Source: Opitutia bacterium (GTDB lineage Bacteria; Verrucomicrobiota; Verrucomicrobiia; Opitutales; Opitutaceae). Taken from it: a stretch of DNA of 64,000 nucleotides. How positions within the stretch are numbered: the stretch's first letter is position 1; each line of letters begins with the position of its first letter. A program made the position numbers and the translations under genes. Shown here one piece after another: positions 11,222-55,430 of the stretch. A model generated the notes under the pieces. It made no database searches, was not told the DNA's origin, and saw only the letters and a list, made by a program, of their open reading frames with translations. The stretch is from the NCBI GenBank assembly GCA_947472765.1, contig CANJCM010000011.1, positions 1-64,000 on the forward strand, in the 5' to 3' direction.

Positions 11222-12667
11222 ATGCCCGCCTCCGTCCACGCCGCCGCGATCGATTTGGGAGCCACCAGTGGCCGGGTCATCCTCGGCACCTGGGCGCGAA
11301 ACCGCCTCACGTGGCGCGAGGTGCACCGCTTCCCCAATGCGTTCCGCACGCTCGACGGGCACGACTACTGGGACGTCGGCTCCTTGTGGCAGGAAGTGCA
11401 GGCCGGCCTCCGCCTCGCGGTGGCGGCACTCCCCCGCGGAGCGAAGCTGGCATCCGTCGGCGTCGACACCTGGGGCGTCGACTACGCGCTCGTCAACGAT
11501 GCCGGCCGGCTCGTCTTCCCGGTTCACGCCTATCGCGACAGCCGCACGCAGCCGGGTCTGCAGAAGCTGGCCCGCACCCGGGCCGCGCTCGCCCGCCTCT
11601 ACGCCGCCACCGGCGTGCCCAACGTCTTCTACAATTCGTCGCTGCAACTCGCCGAGGTCGTCGCGGCCTGCCCGGCGATCGAGGATTTGGCGACGCGGTG
11701 CCTGTTCCTGCCCGACTACTTCAACTTCCTCCTCTCGGGCCGGATGGCGAACGAACTCTCGATCGCGAGCACCTCGCAACTGCTCGACGTCCATTCGACG
11801 CAATGGTCCCGCGCGGCGCTCGATTACTTTCGAATCCCGGCGCACTGGTTCACCCCGCCGGTGCCGGCGGGTACGCGGCTCGGACGGGTCCGCGGAATTC
11901 CCGCGCTGGCCGGCACGCAGGTCATCGCCGTGCCAGGCCATGACACCGCCTGCGCCTACGATGCCATGCCCGCCGCGCCCGACGGCACCGATCTTTTCCT
12001 GAGTTCCGGCACGTGGTCGCTGGTGGGTTTCGAAAGCGAAACGCCGGTCCTCGGCGCCGAGGCACTCGCGGCGCGGATTTCCAACGAACGCATCGGCGAC
12101 GGCCGTTACCGTCCGCTCACGAACGTCATTGGACTCTGGATGCTCGAGGGGACATTGAAGGACTTCGCCTCGCGCCCGAACAACGACCGCGAGTGGAACG
12201 CGTTGATCACGGCGGCCGCAAAGCGTCCGGCGCCGGCGCGGTTGCTCGACGTCGCGGATCCCGCGTTTGCCAATCCCCCGTCGATGCGCGCCGCCATCGA
12301 TCGCCAGCTCAAGAAATTCCGGGTGACTCCACCGCGCGACCTCGCCGGGTATGTCCGGTTGATCTGCGACTCGCTCGGCCGCGGCCACGCGGAGGCCATG
12401 CGCAACTTCGAGCGGATGACCGGCCGGCGGTTCAAGCGGATCCTGATCGTCGGCGGTGGTTCGAAGAACCGCCTGCTTTGCCAGGCCACGGCGGATGCGG
12501 CCGGCGTGCCGGTGGTGTCCTTCGCCCTCGAGGGCACCGCCGTCGGCAATCTCGCCAGCCAGTTCATCGCTCTGGGCGCCGTGAAGGATCTGACGACCTT
12601 CCGCCGTCACCTCGGCGCCGGTTTGAAGCAGACCGTGTATGCGCCTGACGGATCCAAACCTGTTTAA
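11222..12667 (+). CDS. rhaB: Rhamnulokinase
   Basis: A 481-residue FGGY carbohydrate kinase of the rhamnulokinase type. It phosphorylates L-rhamnulose to L-rhamnulose-1-phosphate with ATP. Diagnostic segments are the N-terminal phosphate loop AAIDLGATSGRVILG, GVDTWGVDYALVND, PGHDTACAYDAMPA, FLSSGTWSLVGFE and the ATP-binding ILIVGGGSKNRLLCQATAD. The start is the ATG at 11222, where family similarity begins. It is divergent from lutABC and lies 2.4 kb from the rhamnulose-1-phosphate aldolase fusion, which supports a rhamnose route. The 3' end abuts a cluster of CACTAA-type repeats. Confidence 0.93.
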   Translation: MPASVHAAAIDLGATSGRVILGTWARNRLTWREVHRFPNAFRTLDGHDYWDVGSLWQEVQAGLRLAVAALPRGAKLASVGVDTWGVDYALVNDAGRLVFPVHAYRDSRTQPGLQKLARTRAALARLYAATGVPNVFYNSSLQLAEVVAACPAIEDLATRCLFLPDYFNFLLSGRMANELSIASTSQLLDVHSTQWSRAALDYFRIPAHWFTPPVPAGTRLGRVRGIPALAGTQVIAVPGHDTACAYDAMPAAPDGTDLFLSSGTWSLVGFESETPVLGAEALAARISNERIGDGRYRPLTNVIGLWMLEGTLKDFASRPNNDREWNALITAAAKRPAPARLLDVADPAFANPPSMRAAIDRQLKKFRVTPPRDLAGYVRLICDSLGRGHAEAMRNFERMTGRRFKRILIVGGGSKNRLLCQATADAAGVPVVSFALEGTAVGNLASQFIALGAVKDLTTFRRHLGAGLKQTVYAPDGSKPV

Positions 12668-12815
12668 CCACTCATTTTCACTCATCGGACACTAATCCAA
12701 TCCAGGCAGAGGGGGTCCAATCCTTGAACCACTAACTTTCACTAACGGGACACTAACTCGATCCAGTCTGAGTGGTTCGAAGTATTCTCCGAGATTAGTG
12801 ACCGATTAGTGCCAA
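12668..12815. repeat. CACTAA-type repeat cluster
   Basis: Alternating forward and inverted copies of a unit with three CACTAA boxes spaced by 11-12 bp, for example ACTTTCACTAACGGGACAC and GATTAGTGCCAATTAGTGG. Other clusters lie at 24797, 27998, 33866 and 38562. Confidence 0.85.
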
Positions 12816-14642
12816 TTAGTGGTTCCCCCGTGCCTTGATCGCCGCTTCGAACGCATCGACTGACTCGCCGCAGCCGGCGATGGCCTGCGCCCAGAATGCC
12901 TTCGTGCCGATGTCCCAGCCGAGCGTCGACTTCACCGCGTCCTCACAGGACGCACTGCCGGTCGCGAGCAGGAACTGCTCGTACTTCGGAAGGAACGACG
13001 CCCCCTCGCGCCGGAACTGCGAGAACAGCGCCTGGCTGAGCAGAAACCCAAACGTGTACGGGAAATTGTAGAACGACACTTCCGCGATGAAGAAGTGGAG
13101 CTTCGACGCCCAGAACCAGGGATCGCGCCCGTGCGGTTCCAGCGCCGGCCCGTAAACCTCGGCCTGCGCCTGCGACATCAGTTCGCAGAGGCGCGACACG
13201 CTCACCACGCCCGCCTTACGCTCCTCGTAAAAGCGCTGCTCAAACAGAAAGCGCACCGGAATGTTCAGCAGATACGCCGGCATGTGGTTCGTCTCCATGT
13301 CGAGGAGGAAGGCCCGGCGCGACGGCGTGAGGCCGGGCGCAGACAGCAGCCCGTGCACGAGAATTTTCTCCGCGAAGGTCGAGGCCGTCTCCGCCAGCGT
13401 CATCGGGTAGTCGCGCGCAATCGGCCGCAGCCCGCCGAGCACATGCGAGTGCCACGCATGGCCGGCTTCGTGCGCGAGGGTCACGACGTCGCCCATCGTG
13501 CCGTTGAAGGTCATGTAAATCCGCTCTTCCCGCGTCAGGGGCGAACCGGTGCAGAACGCGCCGGAGCGTTTGTTGGCGCGCTTTTCCCCCTCGAGCCAGC
13601 GGTCCCGCACACTCTGGCGGAAATACTCGCCGAGCCGCGGATAAGCGGCGTCGAAGGCCGACTGCACCATCGCGATGCCCTCGTCCCATGAAATGTCCGC
13701 AATCGGATCCAGCGGCCGCGGCGCCTCGAGGTCGTACCATTCGAGCGCCTGCGTGCCCTGCAGCCGCGCGCCGATCTGCATGATCCGCCGCGGCAGCGCG
13801 TAGTTCTCGCCGATCGCCGCGAACATCGCATCGAGGGTCGGCTTCGCCAGCGCCGCATCGTGCAATGGAGCATCGAGGAAATGTCCGCGACCGCGCCGTG
13901 CGTACAGCGTGTGCCGCGTGCCGGCGAGGGCGTTGATCGCCGCCGCACAGGTGTCACCCGCCGCGACCCAGACCTTGTTGCCCTCCTCGAACGCGACCTT
14001 CCGGATCGCGCGGTCGGGATTCGTCATCAGCGCGCGGCGTTGCGACATGGGGACGCGTTCGCGGCGTCCATCGGGGAACGTCATCTCGAAACTCATCTTG
14101 CCCGTGACCGTGTCGTAGAGCCGGCTCCACGCCTTGAAGCCGTCGACCCCGAGGTCCGACGCCAGCGCCTCCTGCGCCGCATCCATCTGGTAAACCGCCT
14201 CGGCCCGCAGCCGCCGCAACGCGTGGGCGGCACCGGCGGTCTCCGACGCGGCGAGCAATGCCGCGAAGGCCGTCTCGTCCGCCGGGCGGAGCCCACGGAG
14301 GAGCTGTGATTTCAACTTCGATTCCTCGGCCGCGGCGAGCGACAGCGCCGCCTCCTCGGTCTGATAAGCCTCGTTGGCCGAGTCCGCCGCGCTAAGGCAG
14401 CCGAGATACGAATTGAGATGCCCCATCCGAGTCATCAGCCCTTCCCAGGTCGCAAACGCCCGGGCCCACGCCTGCACGCTTTCCGAAGTCGACTGGAGCG
14501 GCGCGAGCGCGCTGGCCGCGGCGAGCGCAGCCTTGAGGTCGGAATTCAGAGCGGTCCGGAACGCGCGATATTCCGGTCCATCGAAGGTGGGAAAATAGGA
14601 CCGGAGGTCCCAGGTCTGCGGCAAAGGGCGATGCGTCGTCAT
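12816..14642 (-). CDS. M3-family oligoendopeptidase (PepF-like)
   Basis: A 608-residue zinc metallopeptidase. The catalytic motif is LAHEAGHAWHSHVLGG near residue 395, with the third zinc ligand in LAETASTFAEKILV about 30 residues later. The rest aligns with the helical M3/PepF fold (HTLYARRGRGHFLDAPLHDA, YPYTFGFLLSQALFSQF-like segments). There is no signal peptide, so it is a cytoplasmic enzyme that breaks down short peptides. The start is the ATG at 14642 (MTTHRPLPQTWDL), typical of the family; 14666 adds eight residues. It lies between rhamnose genes on the minus strand with no evident functional link to them. Confidence 0.93.
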   Translation of the reverse strand: MTTHRPLPQTWDLRSYFPTFDGPEYRAFRTALNSDLKAALAAASALAPLQSTSESVQAWARAFATWEGLMTRMGHLNSYLGCLSAADSANEAYQTEEAALSLAAAEESKLKSQLLRGLRPADETAFAALLAASETAGAAHALRRLRAEAVYQMDAAQEALASDLGVDGFKAWSRLYDTVTGKMSFEMTFPDGRRERVPMSQRRALMTNPDRAIRKVAFEEGNKVWVAAGDTCAAAINALAGTRHTLYARRGRGHFLDAPLHDAALAKPTLDAMFAAIGENYALPRRIMQIGARLQGTQALEWYDLEAPRPLDPIADISWDEGIAMVQSAFDAAYPRLGEYFRQSVRDRWLEGEKRANKRSGAFCTGSPLTREERIYMTFNGTMGDVVTLAHEAGHAWHSHVLGGLRPIARDYPMTLAETASTFAEKILVHGLLSAPGLTPSRRAFLLDMETNHMPAYLLNIPVRFLFEQRFYEERKAGVVSVSRLCELMSQAQAEVYGPALEPHGRDPWFWASKLHFFIAEVSFYNFPYTFGFLLSQALFSQFRREGASFLPKYEQFLLATGSASCEDAVKSTLGWDIGTKAFWAQAIAGCGESVDAFEAAIKARGNH

Positions 14643-24697: not shown

Positions 24698-25010
24698 CGC
24701 GTTAAAGCTCACTGCCGCTGCGCGCCGGTTCAAGCTTCGGGAGCGAAGGCCCAAACCGGGTTGAGCCGGAAGCCAGGAAGAGAGGAATAGGACTCCCAAC
24801 CAGTGAACCACTAACCGGCACTAACGAGACACTAACTCCGAACCACGGATTTGAACCGCTGGTCCGGATTCCGGGATTCCTGGCTTCAGGCTCCATGGCT
24901 TGGATTAGGGCCCATAAGTGAACACGCGTGGCGACCCCGTTTGAAGCACGGCCGACCGCGACGAACTCCGGCTTGCAGCCTCCGCCCGGACTCCACGCAA
25001 TGCGCCTCTC
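24698..25010. repeat. Gap with CACTAA-type repeats
   Basis: CCAGTGAACCACTAACCGGCACTAACGAGAC and related text lie at about 24799-24845, followed by non-repetitive sequence with no gene seen. It separates the divergent MCE operon and the phosphatase gene and should hold both promoters. Confidence 0.6.
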
Positions 25011-25820: not shown

Positions 25821-25972
25821 TTGTCATCTGATACTTGGATTCCGAAGTTGGCTTCGTAGCCCGCTGCGTGAGCAGCGGGAGGGCTTGAGGCGAAGCGATC
25901 AAGAAGTCCCTGTCCTCACGGACAGGGCCACGCCAATCCGTTTAACTTCGGAATCCAGGTATTGGATGACAA
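25821..25972. mobile_element. Composite palindrome-nested element, copy 1
   Basis: The outer arms TTGTCATC and GATGACAA belong to the target-type palindrome. Inside are terminal inverted repeats TACTTGGATTCCGAAGTT and AACTTCGGAATCCAGGTA. Between them are two hairpins, CCCGCTGC-GTGA-GCAGCGGG and CCCTGTCC-TCAC-GGACAGGG, whose loops are complementary. The element is non-coding. Other copies: 43345-43498, 49157-49304, 55252-55399. Confidence 0.88.
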
Positions 25973-27988: not shown

Positions 27989-28311
27989 TCTCCAATCCGG
28001 TGAACCACTAATTGGCGCTAATCGGACGCTAATCCCGGAGCAGAGGACTAACCACTGATTGGCACTGATTGGACACTAATTTCGGAGGAGGGCTCCGAAC
28101 CACGAAGCAACGTTTGGGTTAGTGTCCCGTTAGTGAAAGTGAGTGGTTCAAGGATTGGATCCTCTCCGCCTGGCTCGGGATTAGCGTCCCATCAGCGAAG
28201 ATTAGCGGTTAAACCTGAATCAGCCCCATCAGCGTTACACCCCGATTCGGGGTGAAACGCCCCGCACAGGAAACTTCACTAATCCGCATTAGTGTCCATT
28301 AGTGGCGCGCA
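27989..28311. repeat. CACTAA-type repeat cluster upstream of recD2
   Basis: Forward units (about 28002-28085) and inverted units (about 28115-28145, 28183-28212, 28276-28304) with AGTGTCCCGTTAGTG-like text. The last inverted unit runs up to 8 bases before the recD2 GTG start, so the repeat supplies the 5' leader of the gene. Confidence 0.85.
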
Positions 28312-30696
28312 GTGGCCCAACAACGGCAGTCCTCCGCACCCAGCGCTTCGCTCACCGGCGTGATCGAGCGCATCATTTTTCTCAACGAGGAGAACCACTA
28401 CACCATCGCCGAGCTCCGGCCCGATCCGCCGCCCGGCAAGTCCGTCGATCCCAAGGCGCGCCCCGAGGCGGTCACGGTCGTCGGCCCGCTCCCCGGCGTC
28501 GAATGCGGCGAGACGCTCCACCTCACCGGCGAGTGGTCGCATCACACCCAGCATGGCGCCCAGTTCAAAATTGCGGCGTTCAAGAGCGAGTTGCCGGCGA
28601 GCGTCTACGGCATCCGCAAGTACCTCGGCAGCGGACTCGTCTCCGGCATCGGCAAGGTCTACGCGAACAAGATCGTCGACGCCTTCGGCACCGACACGTT
28701 TCGGATCCTGAGCGAGGAGTCGGGCCGGCTGCGCAGCGTCGACGGCATCGGCAAGAAGCGCGCCACGGCGATCAAACTGGCGTGGGACGAGAAACGCACC
28801 GAGCGCGAACTCTACATTTTCCTCCAAACCTACGGCGTCACGCCGAGCCAGTGCGTGAAGCTGGTGAAACAATACGGTCCCGCCGCCCAGCGGATCCTCA
28901 CCACCGAGCCATACCGGGTCGCCCGCGAGATCGACGGCATCGGCTTCAAGACCGCCGACCGGATCGCGATCAATCTCGGGTTCGCCAATGACGCCGCGCC
29001 CCGCCTGGACGCCGGGCTTCTCTACGCGCTCGAGACGCTGCAGGAGGAGGGACACACCGCATTTCCCCACGACGATCTCGTCGCGCACACCGCCAACCTG
29101 CTCGAGACGGACTCGCGGCTCGTCACCGCCCGGATCGCCGCCCTCATCGAGTCCCACGCGGTCGTCGCCCAGACCCCGCCGGACGTGCCGGATTCCGCAG
29201 CGTTAACCAACACCACGCTCCTCCAGCTACCGCACAACGACCGCGCCGAGCAGAAAATCGCCGCGACCGTGGGGCGTCTCAATCGCGTCGCGAGCGGACT
29301 GCCACCCATTCGGATCGATGCCGCCGTGAAGTGGGCCGAGGAGAAAGCAGGCTTCGAGTTTCACGAGTTGCAGCGCACCGCAGTCCGCCACGCCCTCGCC
29401 CGCAAGCTCACGATCCTCACGGGTGGTCCCGGCACCGGCAAGACCACCATCCTGCGCGCGCTCGTCGAAATCCTGAAAGCCAAGAAAGTCCGCATACATC
29501 TCGCCGCGCCCACCGGCCGGGCGGCCCAACGACTCGCCGAAACCACCGGCGGATACGCCTCCACCATTCACCGGCTGCTGAAATACGACGCCAGCAAGGG
29601 GGGCTTCACCGCGAACGAGAATACTCCTCTCGCCACGGATTTCCTGATCGTCGACGAGGCCTCGATGCTCGACACGCGTCTCGCCGCGGCGCTCTTCCAG
29701 GCGGTCCCGTCCCGCGCCCATCTCCTGCTCGTCGGCGACATCGACCAACTCCCGAGCGTCGGCCCCGGCAACGTCCTCAAGGATCTCATCACCGCCGCCA
29801 CCTCCCTCTCTCAACCCTCAACTCTCAACCCTCAACTATCAGCCCCCGCCGCCGTCACGCGCCTTTCCGTCATCTACCGCCAGAAGGAACAGAGCGGGAT
29901 CGTCACGACCGCGCATGCGATCAACTCCGGCGATCCCTCGCTGCCGCCCGCGGTGCCTGACGTCGCGTCGGCCCAGGCCTGGTCGGATCTCACCTTCGTC
30001 GTTGCGACCGATGCGGAGGATTGCGTCCGCAAGGTGATCGAACTCTGCACGGAGTTCATTCCGCGGCATTGGAAGTGGTTCGATCCGGTCAACGACGTGC
30101 AGATCCTCGCGCCGATGCACAAGGGCGTCGCCGGCGTCGCGAATCTCAATGTGCAGCTGCAGGGCGCGTTGAATAATCCGGGTGTGGCACGGGTCTCCCG
30201 ACCCGTGATGGAACGTTCCACGGGTCGGGAGACCCGTGCCACTTCGAACCATCCGGCCCCGTCGCTGCGCGGGCCTGGCGGCGAGTTTCGCCCGGGCGAC
30301 AAAGTCATCCAGCTCCGGAACAACTACGACAAGAACCTCTTCAACGGTGACATTGGCAACGTGACCGCGGTCGATCCCACCGCGGGCAAACTCGAGGCCG
30401 CGTTCGACGGCGATCGCCATGAATTCTCGCGCGGCGAGTTCGGTGACCTCGCCCTCGCCTACGCCATCAGCATCCACAAGTCACAGGGCAGCGAATATCC
30501 CGTCGTCATCGTGCCGCTGCTGAAGGGGCATTTCATGATGCTCCAGCGGAACCTGCTCTATACCGCGATCACCCGCGGCAAGAAGAAGGTTTTCCTCGTC
30601 GGCGAGCCCGCCGCGTACGCGATGGCCGTGCGCAACAGCGAGTCGAAGCAACGGCTCACGCACCTGCGCGAGAAGATCGCGGCGCTGCTGGCGTAG
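28312..30696 (+). CDS. recD2: RecD2-type ATP-dependent DNA helicase
   Basis: A 794-residue SF1B 5'-3' DNA helicase used in repair and replication. The N-terminal OB-like and helix-hairpin-helix part (SGIGKVYANKIV, DGIGKKRATAI, DGIGFKTADRIA) marks RecD2. The helicase motifs are Walker A GGPGTGKTT (about 371), DEASMLD (about 448), GDIDQLPSVGPGNVL, HKSQGSEYP (about 720) and LYTAITRGKKKVFLVG. It starts at GTG 28312. Two dispersed repeats are inserted in frame: a CTCTCAACCCTCAACT run after motif III (LSQPSTLNPQLS) and a 59-bp inverted pair coding GVARVSRPVMERSTGRETRA before the C-terminal SH3-like part. The frame is intact, so the protein may still work. Confidence 0.93.
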   Translation: MAQQRQSSAPSASLTGVIERIIFLNEENHYTIAELRPDPPPGKSVDPKARPEAVTVVGPLPGVECGETLHLTGEWSHHTQHGAQFKIAAFKSELPASVYGIRKYLGSGLVSGIGKVYANKIVDAFGTDTFRILSEESGRLRSVDGIGKKRATAIKLAWDEKRTERELYIFLQTYGVTPSQCVKLVKQYGPAAQRILTTEPYRVAREIDGIGFKTADRIAINLGFANDAAPRLDAGLLYALETLQEEGHTAFPHDDLVAHTANLLETDSRLVTARIAALIESHAVVAQTPPDVPDSAALTNTTLLQLPHNDRAEQKIAATVGRLNRVASGLPPIRIDAAVKWAEEKAGFEFHELQRTAVRHALARKLTILTGGPGTGKTTILRALVEILKAKKVRIHLAAPTGRAAQRLAETTGGYASTIHRLLKYDASKGGFTANENTPLATDFLIVDEASMLDTRLAAALFQAVPSRAHLLLVGDIDQLPSVGPGNVLKDLITAATSLSQPSTLNPQLSAPAAVTRLSVIYRQKEQSGIVTTAHAINSGDPSLPPAVPDVASAQAWSDLTFVVATDAEDCVRKVIELCTEFIPRHWKWFDPVNDVQILAPMHKGVAGVANLNVQLQGALNNPGVARVSRPVMERSTGRETRATSNHPAPSLRGPGGEFRPGDKVIQLRNNYDKNLFNGDIGNVTAVDPTAGKLEAAFDGDRHEFSRGEFGDLALAYAISIHKSQGSEYPVVIVPLLKGHFMMLQRNLLYTAITRGKKKVFLVGEPAAYAMAVRNSESKQRLTHLREKIAALLA
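29805..29840. repeat. In-frame TTGAGAG-family repeat inside recD2
   Basis: TCTCTCAACCCTCAACTCTC on the coding strand is the inverse of the GTTGAGAGTTGAGGG intergenic family seen at 2633-2720 and 4020. It encodes LSQPSTLNPQLS between helicase motif III and the next conserved segment. Confidence 0.85.
30184..30242. repeat. In-frame inverted pair of GTGGCACGGGTCTCCC units inside recD2
   Basis: The left arm begins GTGGCACGGGTCTCCCGACC and is mirrored by a 24-bp perfect right arm ending AGACCCGTGCCAC; the centre is TGGAACGTTCCA. Each arm is itself a hairpin. A solo unit lies at 20700-20723. Confidence 0.92.
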
Positions 30697-33796: not shown

Positions 33797-33865
33797 GGGG
33801 AGGTGGAGGTTCGGTGACACGCCGCTTGACGCAGCGCGACGCGAATCGGTCCGCGGCCTGATCCA

Positions 33866-34425
33866 ATCCTTGAACCGCTAATTTTCGCGAATGGGCGCTA
33901 ATCCTGACCCAATCTTTGAACCACTAACTTTCACTAACGGGACACTAACTAGGGCCGGACGGATCCAAACCTGTTTAACCACTAATCTTCACTAATCGGA
34001 CACTAATCCAATCCAGCGGAGGGGTTCGATCCCGGAGAGGTGCGACGCGTCGCTCGCTCAGGAATTAGTGTCCAATCAGTGCCAATGAGTGGTTCACCGC
34101 CTTGGTCGGGAGTTAGTGCACCATTAGTGCCCGTTAGTGGTTTTGATCCGGTCCGGATCGGAAGGGTTGAACCACTCATTTTCACTGATTGGACACTCAT
34201 TCGATCCCGCCGGAGAGGGTCCAATCCTTGAACCACTAACTTCCACTAACGGGACACTAACTCGATCGAGTCAGAGTAGTCCGTGGCCTTCTCCAAAATT
34301 AGTGTCCGATGAGTGCCAATCAGTGGTTCCCCCGCCTTGGTCCGAAGTTAGTGCACCGTTAGTGCCCGTTAGTGGTTTTGATCCGGTCCGGGATTAGTTC
34401 CGATTAGTGGTCCCCCCACCGAAAT
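33866..34425. repeat. Largest CACTAA-type repeat array
   Basis: About 560 bp built of alternating forward (AACCACTAACTTTCACTAAC) and inverted (TTAGTGTCCAATCAGTGCCA) units separated by variable GC-rich spacers such as CGATCCCGGAGAGG. Each unit has three ACTAA/ACTCA boxes spaced 11-12 bp. I count roughly ten units by eye. It lies between the divergent amidohydrolase and M16 peptidase genes. Confidence 0.88.
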
Positions 34426-34553: not shown

Positions 34554-37550
34554 ATGAAACGATTCCTTCCCGTTCCGCTCCTCGTCCTGGCCGCGTTCGT
34601 TCTTCCTGCCTTCGCCGCCGAGCGGCCCAACGTCGCCGGCTTCGAATTCGTCAAGGAGTCCGGCGGCGTCACGGAGTTCAAGCTCACCGCGAACGACCTC
34701 AACGTCCTGCTCCTCGAGGACCACTCCGCCCCGGTGCTCACGTTCATGGTCACCTACCGCGTCGGCTCGCGCAACGAGGTCACCGGCACCACCGGCGCCA
34801 CGCACATCCTCGAACACCTCATGTTCAAGGGCAGCCAGAATTTCCACCCCGGGATCGGCAAGGGCTTCGACACGATGATGGACCAGGTCGGCGGCATCAA
34901 CAACGCCACCACCTCCCTCGACCGCACCAACTACTACGAGAACCTGCCGAGCAACCACCTCGAACTCGCCGTCGCCATGGAGGCCGACCGCATGCGCCAC
35001 CTGCTCCTGCGTGACGAGGATCGGCAGCCGGAGATGACCGTCGTCCGCAACGAATTCGAACGCGGCGAAAACGATCCCGCCGAGGCGCTCGAGAAGGAGA
35101 TCATGTCCACCGCCTTCGTCGCCCACCCGTACCACCACCCGACGATCGGCTGGCGGAGCGACATCGAGAAGGTGTCGATCGCGAAGCTGAAGGAGTTCTA
35201 CGACACATTCTACTGGCCGAATAACGCGACGATCACAGTCATCGGCGACTTCGCCCCCGCCAACGCGCTTCAGCTCATCCAGAAATATTTCGCCGTCATC
35301 CCCCGTGCGCCGCACCCGATTCCCACGATCTACACGGAGGAGCCCGCCCAGACCGGTCCGCGCCGCGTGGTGGTAAAACGGCCCGGTGAGGTCGGCGTCG
35401 TCCAGATCGCCTACAAGACGCCCCGCGCCCTGCATCCCGATCATGCGCCTCTCGAGGTCCTCTCCGTGCTGCTGAGCGAGGGGAAGTCCAGCCGGCTTTA
35501 CCGCGCGCTGATCGACGCCAACCTCGGCATCAGCGCCGACGCCTGGAAGGGCGCGTTTCACGACGACATGCTCTTCTCGCTGAGCTCGATGCTCGCGCCC
35601 GGCGTCGGTCACGAGCAGGTCGAGAAGACGCTCCTCGCCGAGGTCGAGAAGGTGAAGAAGGACGGCGTCACCCCGACCGAGGTCACGCGGGCCATCAATC
35701 AACTGCTAGCCGGCATCGCGTTTCACCGCGACGGGTCCTTCGCGATCGCGGGACAAATCAACGAGGCCATCGCGGTCGGTGACTGGACGAGCTACACCGG
35801 CTTGCTCGAGAAGTTGAAGGTCGTGACCGCCGCCGACATTCAGCGCGTCGCCCGGCAGTACCTCAACGAGGACCAAAGCACGACGGGTTGGTTCATCCCG
35901 CAGGCGGAGCCCGCCGAGCCCGCCAAAGGCCAGGCTAGAAACGCAAAGATGCGCGAAGCGGGAGATGACTCTCTTGGTAGCCCGCTGCGTGAGCAGCGGG
36001 ACGACGTCAGGCTCAGCAGTGAAGAAGTCCCTGCCCTCACGGGCAGGGCTACCCTGGACGAGGGTCGGGATGCCGAACGCCATGCAACAGCTCTGCCGCT
36101 CGGTGGCAGCACGTCGGCCGTCACCTCCGCAATCGCATCGTACTCCGGCGCCGGTCGCTTCCTGCACTACTACCGGGACCCTCGCGGTCAGGATGACTTC
36201 AACGCGCCGCCGACCCGAGGCGCTCCCGCCGCTCTCGCCGCCGCTCCCATCACCGGCGGCGGCAAGGCCGCCACCGGGGCATTGATCGCTCCGCGCGTCC
36301 GTCGCCGCCAGGTCGCAGGCATCGACGTCCTCACGCTCAAGACCGGAATCAAGGACGTCGTGACCATTCGCGGCGTGCTCGGCGCCGGCGATGTTTTCAA
36401 CCTGCCAGGCAACTCCGCCATCGCCGATCTCACCGCGGGCATGTTGGACCAGGGCACGGTCAAACGTGACAAGTTCGCCGTCGCCGCGGTGCTCGAGGAA
36501 ACCGGTGCCACGCTTCGTTTCGGGACCGGCAGCCACACGCTCAACTTCTCCGGCAAAAGCCTGCGCAAGGACCTGCCGCTCGTCGTCGGATTGCTCGCCG
36601 AACAGTTGCGCACGCCGCGGCTCGATGCGGAGGAGTTCGCGAAGCTGAAGACCCAGCTCATCGGCCGGCACAAGCGCGCGATGGACGACACCGACTTCCG
36701 CGCGGGCCGCGAATTCGAGCGCGCCATTTATCCGGAGGGCCACCCGAACCGCCCGCCCGCGAACGAAAAATATCTGGCCGACGTCGAGGCCGCGACGCTC
36801 GACCAGTTGCGCGCTTTCCACGCCGCCAACTACGGCCCGACCGCCGCCCGGCTCGTGATCGTGGGCGATGTCGACGACGCCGCGATCGACGCGGCCATCG
36901 GCGAGGCCTTCGCCGGCTGGAAGGGCGGGCGCCCGATTCCGCCGGCACCGCGCGCTCCGGCCCTCGCCGCTCCCCGCGTCGAAAAGGTCGCGATGCCGGG
37001 CAAGACGAGTGTGTCGCTCACCATCGGGCAACCGTCCGGTCTGCGTTACACCGATCCCGGCTATCAGGCGCTCAACATGGCGACGTCGGTCCTCGGCAGC
37101 GGTTTCTTCTCGGCCCGGCTGCTCGACATCATTCGCAACCGCGAGGGACTCACCTACGGCATCTTCGCCCAGCTCAGCGGCGACACCTACGCTGACGGCG
37201 GCTGGCAAATCTCCGGCACCTTCGCTCCCGACCTGCTGGAGAAGGGTCTCGCCTCCACCCTGCGCGAACTCAACCGCTTCGCCCGCGAAGGCCTGACCGC
37301 CGCGGAACTCACCACGTTCAAGGTCACCCTCACGGGTTCGTACAAAGTCGCCCTCGCGACGACGGACGGCCTCGCCTCGACGCTGCTCAATACCATTCAG
37401 CGCGGGTACGGTCCGGAGTGGGTTGATGAGTTACCCCGCAAGATCGAAGCGCTGTCGCTCGCCGAGGTGAACGCCGCGATCAAGCAGTACCTGAATCCGG
37501 ACAAGATGGTGACGGTCATGGCCGGCACGTTTCCCGAAGCGGGAAAGTAG
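34554..37550 (+). CDS. M16-family zinc peptidase (two-domain, secreted)
   Basis: A 998-residue protein with a signal peptide (FLPVPLLVLAAFVLPAFA). The first M16 domain has the inverted zinc motif THILEHLMFKG near residue 85 and the distant Glu in ENDPAEALEKEI, followed by two more M16 units. It degrades peptides in the periplasm. At residues about 475-500 there is an in-frame REPIN-like insertion (SPLREQRDDVRLSSEEVPALTGRAT), between the first pair and the second pair of M16 domains, a linker position that could tolerate it. The start is the ATG at 34554; the upstream extension is repeat sequence. Confidence 0.9.
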   Translation: MKRFLPVPLLVLAAFVLPAFAAERPNVAGFEFVKESGGVTEFKLTANDLNVLLLEDHSAPVLTFMVTYRVGSRNEVTGTTGATHILEHLMFKGSQNFHPGIGKGFDTMMDQVGGINNATTSLDRTNYYENLPSNHLELAVAMEADRMRHLLLRDEDRQPEMTVVRNEFERGENDPAEALEKEIMSTAFVAHPYHHPTIGWRSDIEKVSIAKLKEFYDTFYWPNNATITVIGDFAPANALQLIQKYFAVIPRAPHPIPTIYTEEPAQTGPRRVVVKRPGEVGVVQIAYKTPRALHPDHAPLEVLSVLLSEGKSSRLYRALIDANLGISADAWKGAFHDDMLFSLSSMLAPGVGHEQVEKTLLAEVEKVKKDGVTPTEVTRAINQLLAGIAFHRDGSFAIAGQINEAIAVGDWTSYTGLLEKLKVVTAADIQRVARQYLNEDQSTTGWFIPQAEPAEPAKGQARNAKMREAGDDSLGSPLREQRDDVRLSSEEVPALTGRATLDEGRDAERHATALPLGGSTSAVTSAIASYSGAGRFLHYYRDPRGQDDFNAPPTRGAPAALAAAPITGGGKAATGALIAPRVRRRQVAGIDVLTLKTGIKDVVTIRGVLGAGDVFNLPGNSAIADLTAGMLDQGTVKRDKFAVAAVLEETGATLRFGTGSHTLNFSGKSLRKDLPLVVGLLAEQLRTPRLDAEEFAKLKTQLIGRHKRAMDDTDFRAGREFERAIYPEGHPNRPPANEKYLADVEAATLDQLRAFHAANYGPTAARLVIVGDVDDAAIDAAIGEAFAGWKGGRPIPPAPRAPALAAPRVEKVAMPGKTSVSLTIGQPSGLRYTDPGYQALNMATSVLGSGFFSARLLDIIRNREGLTYGIFAQLSGDTYADGGWQISGTFAPDLLEKGLASTLRELNRFAREGLTAAELTTFKVTLTGSYKVALATTDGLASTLLNTIQRGYGPEWVDELPRKIEALSLAEVNAAIKQYLNPDKMVTVMAGTFPEAGK
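35976..36053. repeat. REPIN-like hairpin pair inside the M16 gene
   Basis: GGTAGCCCGCTGCGTGAGCA starts the first hairpin and CCCTGCCC-TCAC-GGGCAGGG forms the second; the ends GGTAGCCC and GGGCTACC are complementary. At 78 bp (26 codons) it keeps the reading frame. The same core lies at 38298-38372 and inside the four composite elements. Confidence 0.9.
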
Positions 37551-38297: not shown

Positions 38298-38372
38298 GTG
38301 GCCCTGCCCGTGAGGGCAGGGACCTCTTTGTGCTCCGCTTAAAGTCGTCCCGCTGCTCACGCAGCGGGCTAC
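38298..38372. repeat. Solo REPIN-like hairpin pair
   Basis: CCCTGCCC-GTGA-GGGCAGGG and CCCGCTGC-TCAC-GCAGCGGG are separated by about 27 bp and bounded by GTGGCC and GGCTAC. It is the core of the composite element without the outer terminal repeats, 30 bases after the small membrane protein gene. Confidence 0.9.
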
Positions 38373-43344: not shown

Positions 43345-43498
43345 TTTGTCATCTGTTAAATGGATTCCGAAGTTGATTGGCTCGGCGTGGCCCTGTCCGT
43401 GAGGACAGGGATTTCTCGATCGCTCTGCATGAAGCCGTCCCGCTGCTCACGCAGCGGGCTACGAAGCCGACTTCGGAATTCAGGTGCTAGATGACAAA
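43345..43498. mobile_element. Composite palindrome-nested element, copy 2 (inverted)
   Basis: The outer arms TTTGTCATC and GATGACAAA belong to the target palindrome. Terminal repeats ATGGATTCCGAAGTT and ACTTCGGAATTCAGG follow. The hairpin pair is in reverse order to copy 1: CCCTGTCC-GTGA-GGACAGGG comes first, then CCCGCTGC-TCAC-GCAGCGGG. Confidence 0.88.
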
Positions 43499-49156: not shown

Positions 49157-49304
49157 GTCACGTATTACGTGGATTCCGAAGTTGGCCTGGTAGCCCGCTG
49201 CGTGAGCAGCGGGACGGCATGGAGCGCAGCAATGAAGGAGTCCCTGTCCTCACGGACAGGGCCACGCCAATCCGTTTAACTTCGGAATCCAGGTATAACG
49301 TGAC
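49157..49304. mobile_element. Composite palindrome-nested element, copy 3
   Basis: The flanking palindrome is GTCACGT ... ACGTGAC rather than TTGTCATC ... GATGACAA. The terminal repeats TACGTGGATTCCGAAGTT and AACTTCGGAATCCAGGTA and the two hairpins match copies 1 and 4. Removing the element would leave a near-perfect palindrome GTCACGT-ATTA-ACGTGAC. Confidence 0.88.
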
Positions 49305-55019: not shown

Positions 55020-55430
55020 GCCAGAGCGGCGCCGGACGACGGAGTCGGTAACGAACCACCGGCAATGGATCGCCGTCAACCCTGGCACACGACTCCGCCG
55101 GAATTTCGTCAGCGCACGCTCCCGAAAAGCAATTCCTGGAGGGACGGTGCCCCACCGTCCGGTGTGAAGGGCCCGATGCCATCTGGCGGACGGGGGCGTC
55201 CGCCCTCCATGGTAAGAGGCCCGGCGGCGAGCTCCGCTCCAGGCCGTAGTTGTCATCCAATACTTGGATTCCGAAGTTGGCTTCGTAGCCCGCTGCGTGA
55301 GCAGCGGGACGGCTTTAGGCGAAGCGATCACGAAGTCCCTGTCCTCACGGACAGGGCCACGCCAATCCGTTTAACTTCGGAATCCAGGTAATAGATGACA
55401 AAGCCGTCCGGTCCGACATCGTCGGACCGC
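55020..55430. repeat. Repeat-filled gap with composite element copy 4
   Basis: TGGAGGGACGGTGCCCCACCG (55138), GCGGACGGGGGCGTCCGCCC (55186), composite element (55252-55399), and the small palindrome GTCCGAC-ATC-GTCGGAC (55411-55427) just before the next gene. Confidence 0.8.
55252..55399. mobile_element. Composite palindrome-nested element, copy 4
   Basis: The outer arms TTGTCATC (left) and GATGACAA (right) flank TACTTGGATTCCGAAGTT and AACTTCGGAATCCAGGTA, with the two hairpins between them. It is nearly identical to copy 1 throughout. It lies immediately upstream of the M20 gene; the ATG of the longer track ORF (55395) is part of its right palindrome arm. Confidence 0.9.

Follow-up and report, generated by a model that had tools for sequence, protein, structure and literature searches.

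Results

The window, that is, the whole stretch of 64,000 nt of DNA analysed here, carries on its forward strand a gene for a fused M16 peptidase of 998 amino acids (34554-37550), in which Pfam recognised two stretches each of Peptidase_M16 (PF00675) and Peptidase_M16_C (PF05193). The protein starts with a signal-peptide-like N terminus, followed by a catalytic half with the motif HILEH, a disordered linker and a non-catalytic half. The residues H84, E87 and H88 of HILEH were at least 90% conserved, and the translation of the C-terminal half lacked HxxEH; one half thus has the motif and the other misses it, as in pairs of active and inactive M16 proteins. Correspondingly, the N-terminal half matched the active subunit (3amj_C) and the C-terminal half the inactive subunit (3amj_B) of the heterodimeric M16 zinc peptidase PDB 3amj, with the difference that the subunits are separate there, whereas the halves form one chain here, joined by a linker that holds a repeat. 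The two halves are encoded by separate neighbouring frames in some relatives outside the genus and are fused in most genus members. Among viral contigs, no relatives of the protein were found.

An AlphaFold2 model based on an alignment of 42 orthologues reached a mean pLDDT of 83, with values mostly above 90 in both halves and below 50 in residues 457-574. This inter-domain linker (35922-36275, forward strand), which is predicted to be disordered, holds a 76-bp repetitive extragenic palindrome doublet, or REPIN, running from GTAG to CTAC (35977-36052, forward strand) and lying in frame. The frame is open over all 998 codons, and both flanks of the REPIN were strongly coding in it (mean log-odds 0.23 over 526 codons and 0.24 over 498). 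Compared with the nearest relative, dN and dS were 0.112 and 0.84 for the N-terminal half and 0.115 and 0.86 for the C-terminal half. Purifying selection on both halves is therefore strong and equal (dN/dS about 0.13), as an average over a period that mostly predates the REPIN insertion.

The left REP (35977-36000, forward strand) reads GTAG-CCCGCTGC-GTGA-GCAGCGGG, the GTAG tag being followed by the stem CCCGCTGC/GCAGCGGG with the loop GTGA. After a spacer of 28 nt, the right REP (36029-36052) follows in inverted orientation; on the forward strand it reads CCCTGCCC-TCAC-GGGCAGGG-CTAC, so that GTAG, the stem CCCTGCCC/GGGCAGGG and the loop GTGA belong to the reverse strand. Both stems are perfect over 8 bp. 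Tag, stem and the 4-nt loop of both units agree with the GTAG REP superfamily, whose hairpins are described as having a stem of 5-13 bp, a loop of 2-20 bp and, on one side, GTAG (or GTGG) left unpaired (Di Nocera et al. 2013, PMC3733652). The architecture is that of a REPIN, in which two inverted REP palindromes enclose a spacer and can together fold into a larger hairpin. A stretch of 91 nt covering the element folded better than 200 of 200 shuffled sequences both as RNA (-46.9 kcal/mol, z -3.5) and as DNA (z -3.7). The REPIN codes for residues 475-500 of the protein, GSPLREQRDDVRLSSEEVPALTGRAT. The sequence-only reading had recognised a REPIN-like hairpin pair in frame between M16 domains, adding about 26 residues, and all these points were borne out.

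REPIN family in the genome

The window is part of a metagenome-assembled genome (MAG) of 4.97 Mb in 157 contigs. Searching it with the hairpin pattern GTRGCCCn5GTGAGn4GGG yielded 450 matches (219+231), while the reversed control pattern yielded none; the hairpin is abundant far beyond chance. In a sample of 2.6 Mb (52% of the genome), 246 hairpins formed 136 loci. They included 78 dimers with outward GTAG ends, of which 61 were exactly 76 nt long, and 21 dimers with inward GTAG ends, 18 of them exactly 57 nt long, i.e., the many copies and the conserved length that characterise REPINs. The copies closest to the M16 element showed 94% identity over 77 bases at best, others 92% over 76, and Blast matches of other copies typically spanned query bases 2-77. 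The length of 78 bp that had initially been given for the element, a multiple of three, was thus not upheld: it comprises the 76-bp unit plus a flanking G and C, and the element as such does not have a length divisible by three. Because 76 bp by themselves would put the reading frame out by one, further small changes must have accompanied or followed the insertion.

Five more copies occur in the window, four of them within a longer form of 166 nt that has inverted arms on the outside. These are at 25856-25931 (forward strand, outside coding-like sequence), 43387-43462 (reverse), 49190-49265 (forward) and 55285-55360 (forward); the fifth (38298-38372, reverse), with 75 bp and without outer arms, overlaps a weakly coding open frame. 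The hairpin pattern was also found in six related genomes of the genus, with 50 to 118 matches each, and had no match in many others. A search of plasmid records with the element sequence gave no match. The window additionally contains abundant CACTAA-type degenerate repeat arrays (AACCACTAACTTTCACTAACGGGACACTAACT) at 12656-12830, 24793-24850, 27990-28178 and 33863-34400, including just upstream of the M16 gene.

Seven Y1_Tnp (RAYT-type) genes were detected in the assembly, two of them near contig ends. None of the seven was found to be flanked by the family of the M16 REPIN; where flanking REPs could be recognised, they belonged to other families. The RAYT-type genes of L146, L147 and L142 each have a separate REP family of their own in the flanks (GGAGGGCGGGTG..., GTGGCACGGGTC... 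and GTAGGGGCGCGC...).

To judge how often family members lie in genes, we called coding sequence by a home-made codon score instead of a gene finder, which makes the in-gene count approximate. By this measure, the M16 copy was the sole one of about 99 family dimers in the sampled 2.6 Mb that lies inside a convincing gene; the remaining 98 or so are outside such genes or upstream of a likely start codon, the usual extragenic location of REPINs. Six further candidates were rejected, three because they lie upstream of likely start codons (C8:48055, C18:10402, C38:25454) and three because their frames look spurious (C25:6435, C26:42893, C38:577). Likewise, three more REP-like families seen in the window (GTAGGGGCG..., GTAGGGCCG... 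and GGAGGG...) had 554 matches, none of them in a gene. The search for other copies within coding sequences, suggested by the sequence-only reading together with a role of the element as donor of protein linkers, accordingly gave no further convincing case for this family. The rarity argues against such a donor and for selection that removes most in-gene insertions. We retain the M16 copy as a REPIN despite its site, because intragenic REPs are documented (PMC3733652) and extragenic position describes the usual location.

Insertion into a variable linker

Between fixed anchors, the linker measures 161 amino acids in the window protein and 72-136 in the other orthologues. The segment coded by the REPIN was absent from all of about 42 distinct aligned orthologues, the comparison that had been named beforehand as the one that could overturn an insertion; it is therefore a lineage-specific insertion and not ancestral. 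The linker is hypervariable in all relatives, many of which have short linkers free of repeats, and it varies too much between species for the exact empty site to be read. Counterparts are also missing for residues that flank the 76 bp, and the net gain may accordingly exceed the element itself. A reading of these flanks as belonging to a longer repeated unit was rejected, since no other copies turned up in 1.16 Mb searched.

The linkers of three relatives hold other repeats in frame. In the nearest relative (L066, genome G004, 77% identity), this is again a pair of REPs from the M16 REPIN family, but arranged the opposite way, CCCTGCGC-TCAC-GCGCAGGG-CTAC, 12 nt, GTAG-CCCGCGGC-GTGA-GCTGCGGG, and it lies downstream of a conserved YYRDP, whereas the REPIN of the window protein lies upstream of it. 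Part of the same linker also looks like simple heptamer repeats. The second case (L065, genome G025) is a hairpin ACGCGACG-CCCC-CGTCGCGT; its pattern was matched at 187 sites of the genome concerned. The third (L062, genome G003), a hairpin GCGGGACG-GGGG-CGTCCCGC, is weak, since its 7 places in the genome are near the level of the reversed control. Counting hairpins in the orthologue linkers gave 6, compared with a mean of 3.2 and a maximum of 9 after codon shuffling, a weak and non-significant enrichment that we rejected as statistical proof; the recurrence of repeats in this linker thus rests on membership in repeat families. The M16 linker is best regarded as a site that lets insertions persist.

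A second REP family in helicase and repair genes

Another family, tagged GTGG and reading GTGGCACGGGTCTCC-N-GACCCGTG, was found at 42 loci with 33 dimers and lies in frame in three genes identified by NCBIfam, recD2, mfd and hrpA. The recD2 helicase gene is on the forward strand of the window (28303-30693), with the REP dimer at 30184-30242 coding VARVSRPVMERSTGRETRAT; the other two sites are at L195 203-275 (contig C3:40203-40276) for mfd and in L343 (contig C38:22624-22647) for hrpA. RecD2 matches to many genus members end at residues 624-627, the REP site, so this spot is variable too.

Some further repeats in coding frames were noticed. The recD2 frame includes an in-frame simple repeat of the CTCAACCCTCAACTC type, SQPSTLNPQLS, at 29808-29837 of the window, and simple repeats of intergenic type (AAATCCAAAATC and similar) are in frame in apparent genes at C11:70808-70827, C13:52830-52845 and C34:10300-10324. 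In two related genomes (G017 contig C23 and G020 contig C67), the RecD2 match splits near residues 378-387 within an open frame of 1195 amino acids, which would correspond to a large in-frame insert, possibly an intein.

Discussion

Very probably, the element in the M16 gene is a rare, tolerated in-frame insertion of a REPIN at a permissive site of a gene whose active and inactive halves were already fused. A GTAG-family REPIN is a mobile element that is non-autonomous and presumably depends on a RAYT transposase of the Y1/HUH type for its movement; such an element would have entered the linker of the fused gene. The copy would have survived there with the frame kept through nearby small changes and with the added residues placed in a floppy linker, at little or no harm, and most other insertions into genes would presumably have been removed by selection. 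About 26 element-coded residues were gained, and no specific function is needed as an explanation.

A functional role, with the REPIN donating a linker or with its residues or its mRNA hairpin selected for, e.g., as a pause between the halves, appears improbable to us. The site exactly between two domains, the strong RNA fold, the repeats in the linkers of several relatives and the fact that most family copies have no stops in more than one frame speak for such a role. However, only one of about 99 dimers is within a gene, the coded segment is predicted to be disordered, the relatives carry other sequences, placed elsewhere in the linker, and many orthologues manage with short linkers that contain no repeat. 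We regard it as highly improbable that the gene is decaying or newly broken, or that the REPIN marks a false join of the assembly. Copies of the element stand at the start or end of several contigs of the MAG, which shows that it does break the assembly, but many relatives have the two halves fused in this order as well, both flanks are orthologous to one and the same gene of G004, and the uninterrupted frame keeps its full coding signal on both sides. The idea that the segment is an ancestral protein feature merely resembling a REP has next to no probability in view of its absence from the orthologues and of the closely matching copies elsewhere in the genome.

Nucleic-acid helicase and repair genes of Opitutaceae, together with the M16 linker, might have been entered repeatedly by REP-type elements through a targeting bias or a selected effect that goes beyond the tolerance of floppy loops; we consider this unlikely, and an enrichment in helicase and repair genes refers to a sample of four genes, too small for a test. 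In Opitutus terrae, REPs were reported in uvrA, DNA ligase and RNA helicase genes (Di Nocera et al. 2013, PMC3733652).

The same paper describes GTAG REP dimers, their link to RAYTs and intragenic copies that code in frame for 20-30 amino acids, gives the highest number of GTAG REPs for O. terrae, and proposes that in-frame inserts are neutral owing to flexible linkers or loops. Judged by the published descriptions, the M16 case shares with the intragenic GTAG dimers of O. terrae the family Opitutaceae, a GTAG/GTGG tag, paired inverted hairpins and the in-frame position in genes; it differs in host species and gene and in that intragenic copies of the M16 REPIN family are very rare in this genome. 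Since in-frame GTAG dimers are known from O. terrae, the M16 case is an example of a known phenomenon and requires no new mechanism. REPINs have been described as mobile units (Bertels and Rainey 2011, PMC3116915), and REPs are recognised via GTAG and the hairpin (PMC8266576). Our element resembles those REPINs (PMC3116915) in that two inverted REPs and the spacer between them make up a hairpin, in its high copy number and mostly extragenic position, and in the presence of RAYT-type genes in the genome; in contrast, the M16 copy is intragenic and no cognate RAYT adjoining the family was found among the seven. Palindromic mobile repeats inserted in frame into genes that probably encode working proteins are also known as RPEs from Rickettsia (Ogata et al., as cited in PMC3733652). 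Here, the manner of in-frame insertion is alike and nothing else. RPE-4 and RPE-6 are listed there as CGTC-tagged repeats, whereas the M16 element is GTAG-tagged and unrelated in sequence; an assignment to the RPEs was therefore rejected.

What is new here is the recurrence of insertions within one linker and the in-frame occurrence of a second REP family in recD2, mfd and hrpA. The latter repeats, for a second genome of the Opitutaceae, the unexplained observation of 2013 that REPs reside in genes for helicases and repair proteins. The M16 REPIN represents a well-resolved case of mobile hairpin DNA that turned into protein sequence, in a linker that has been entered by different repeats and that can be compared across many species of the genus, so that the frequency with which REPINs land in genes, and the survival of such copies, become testable by counting.
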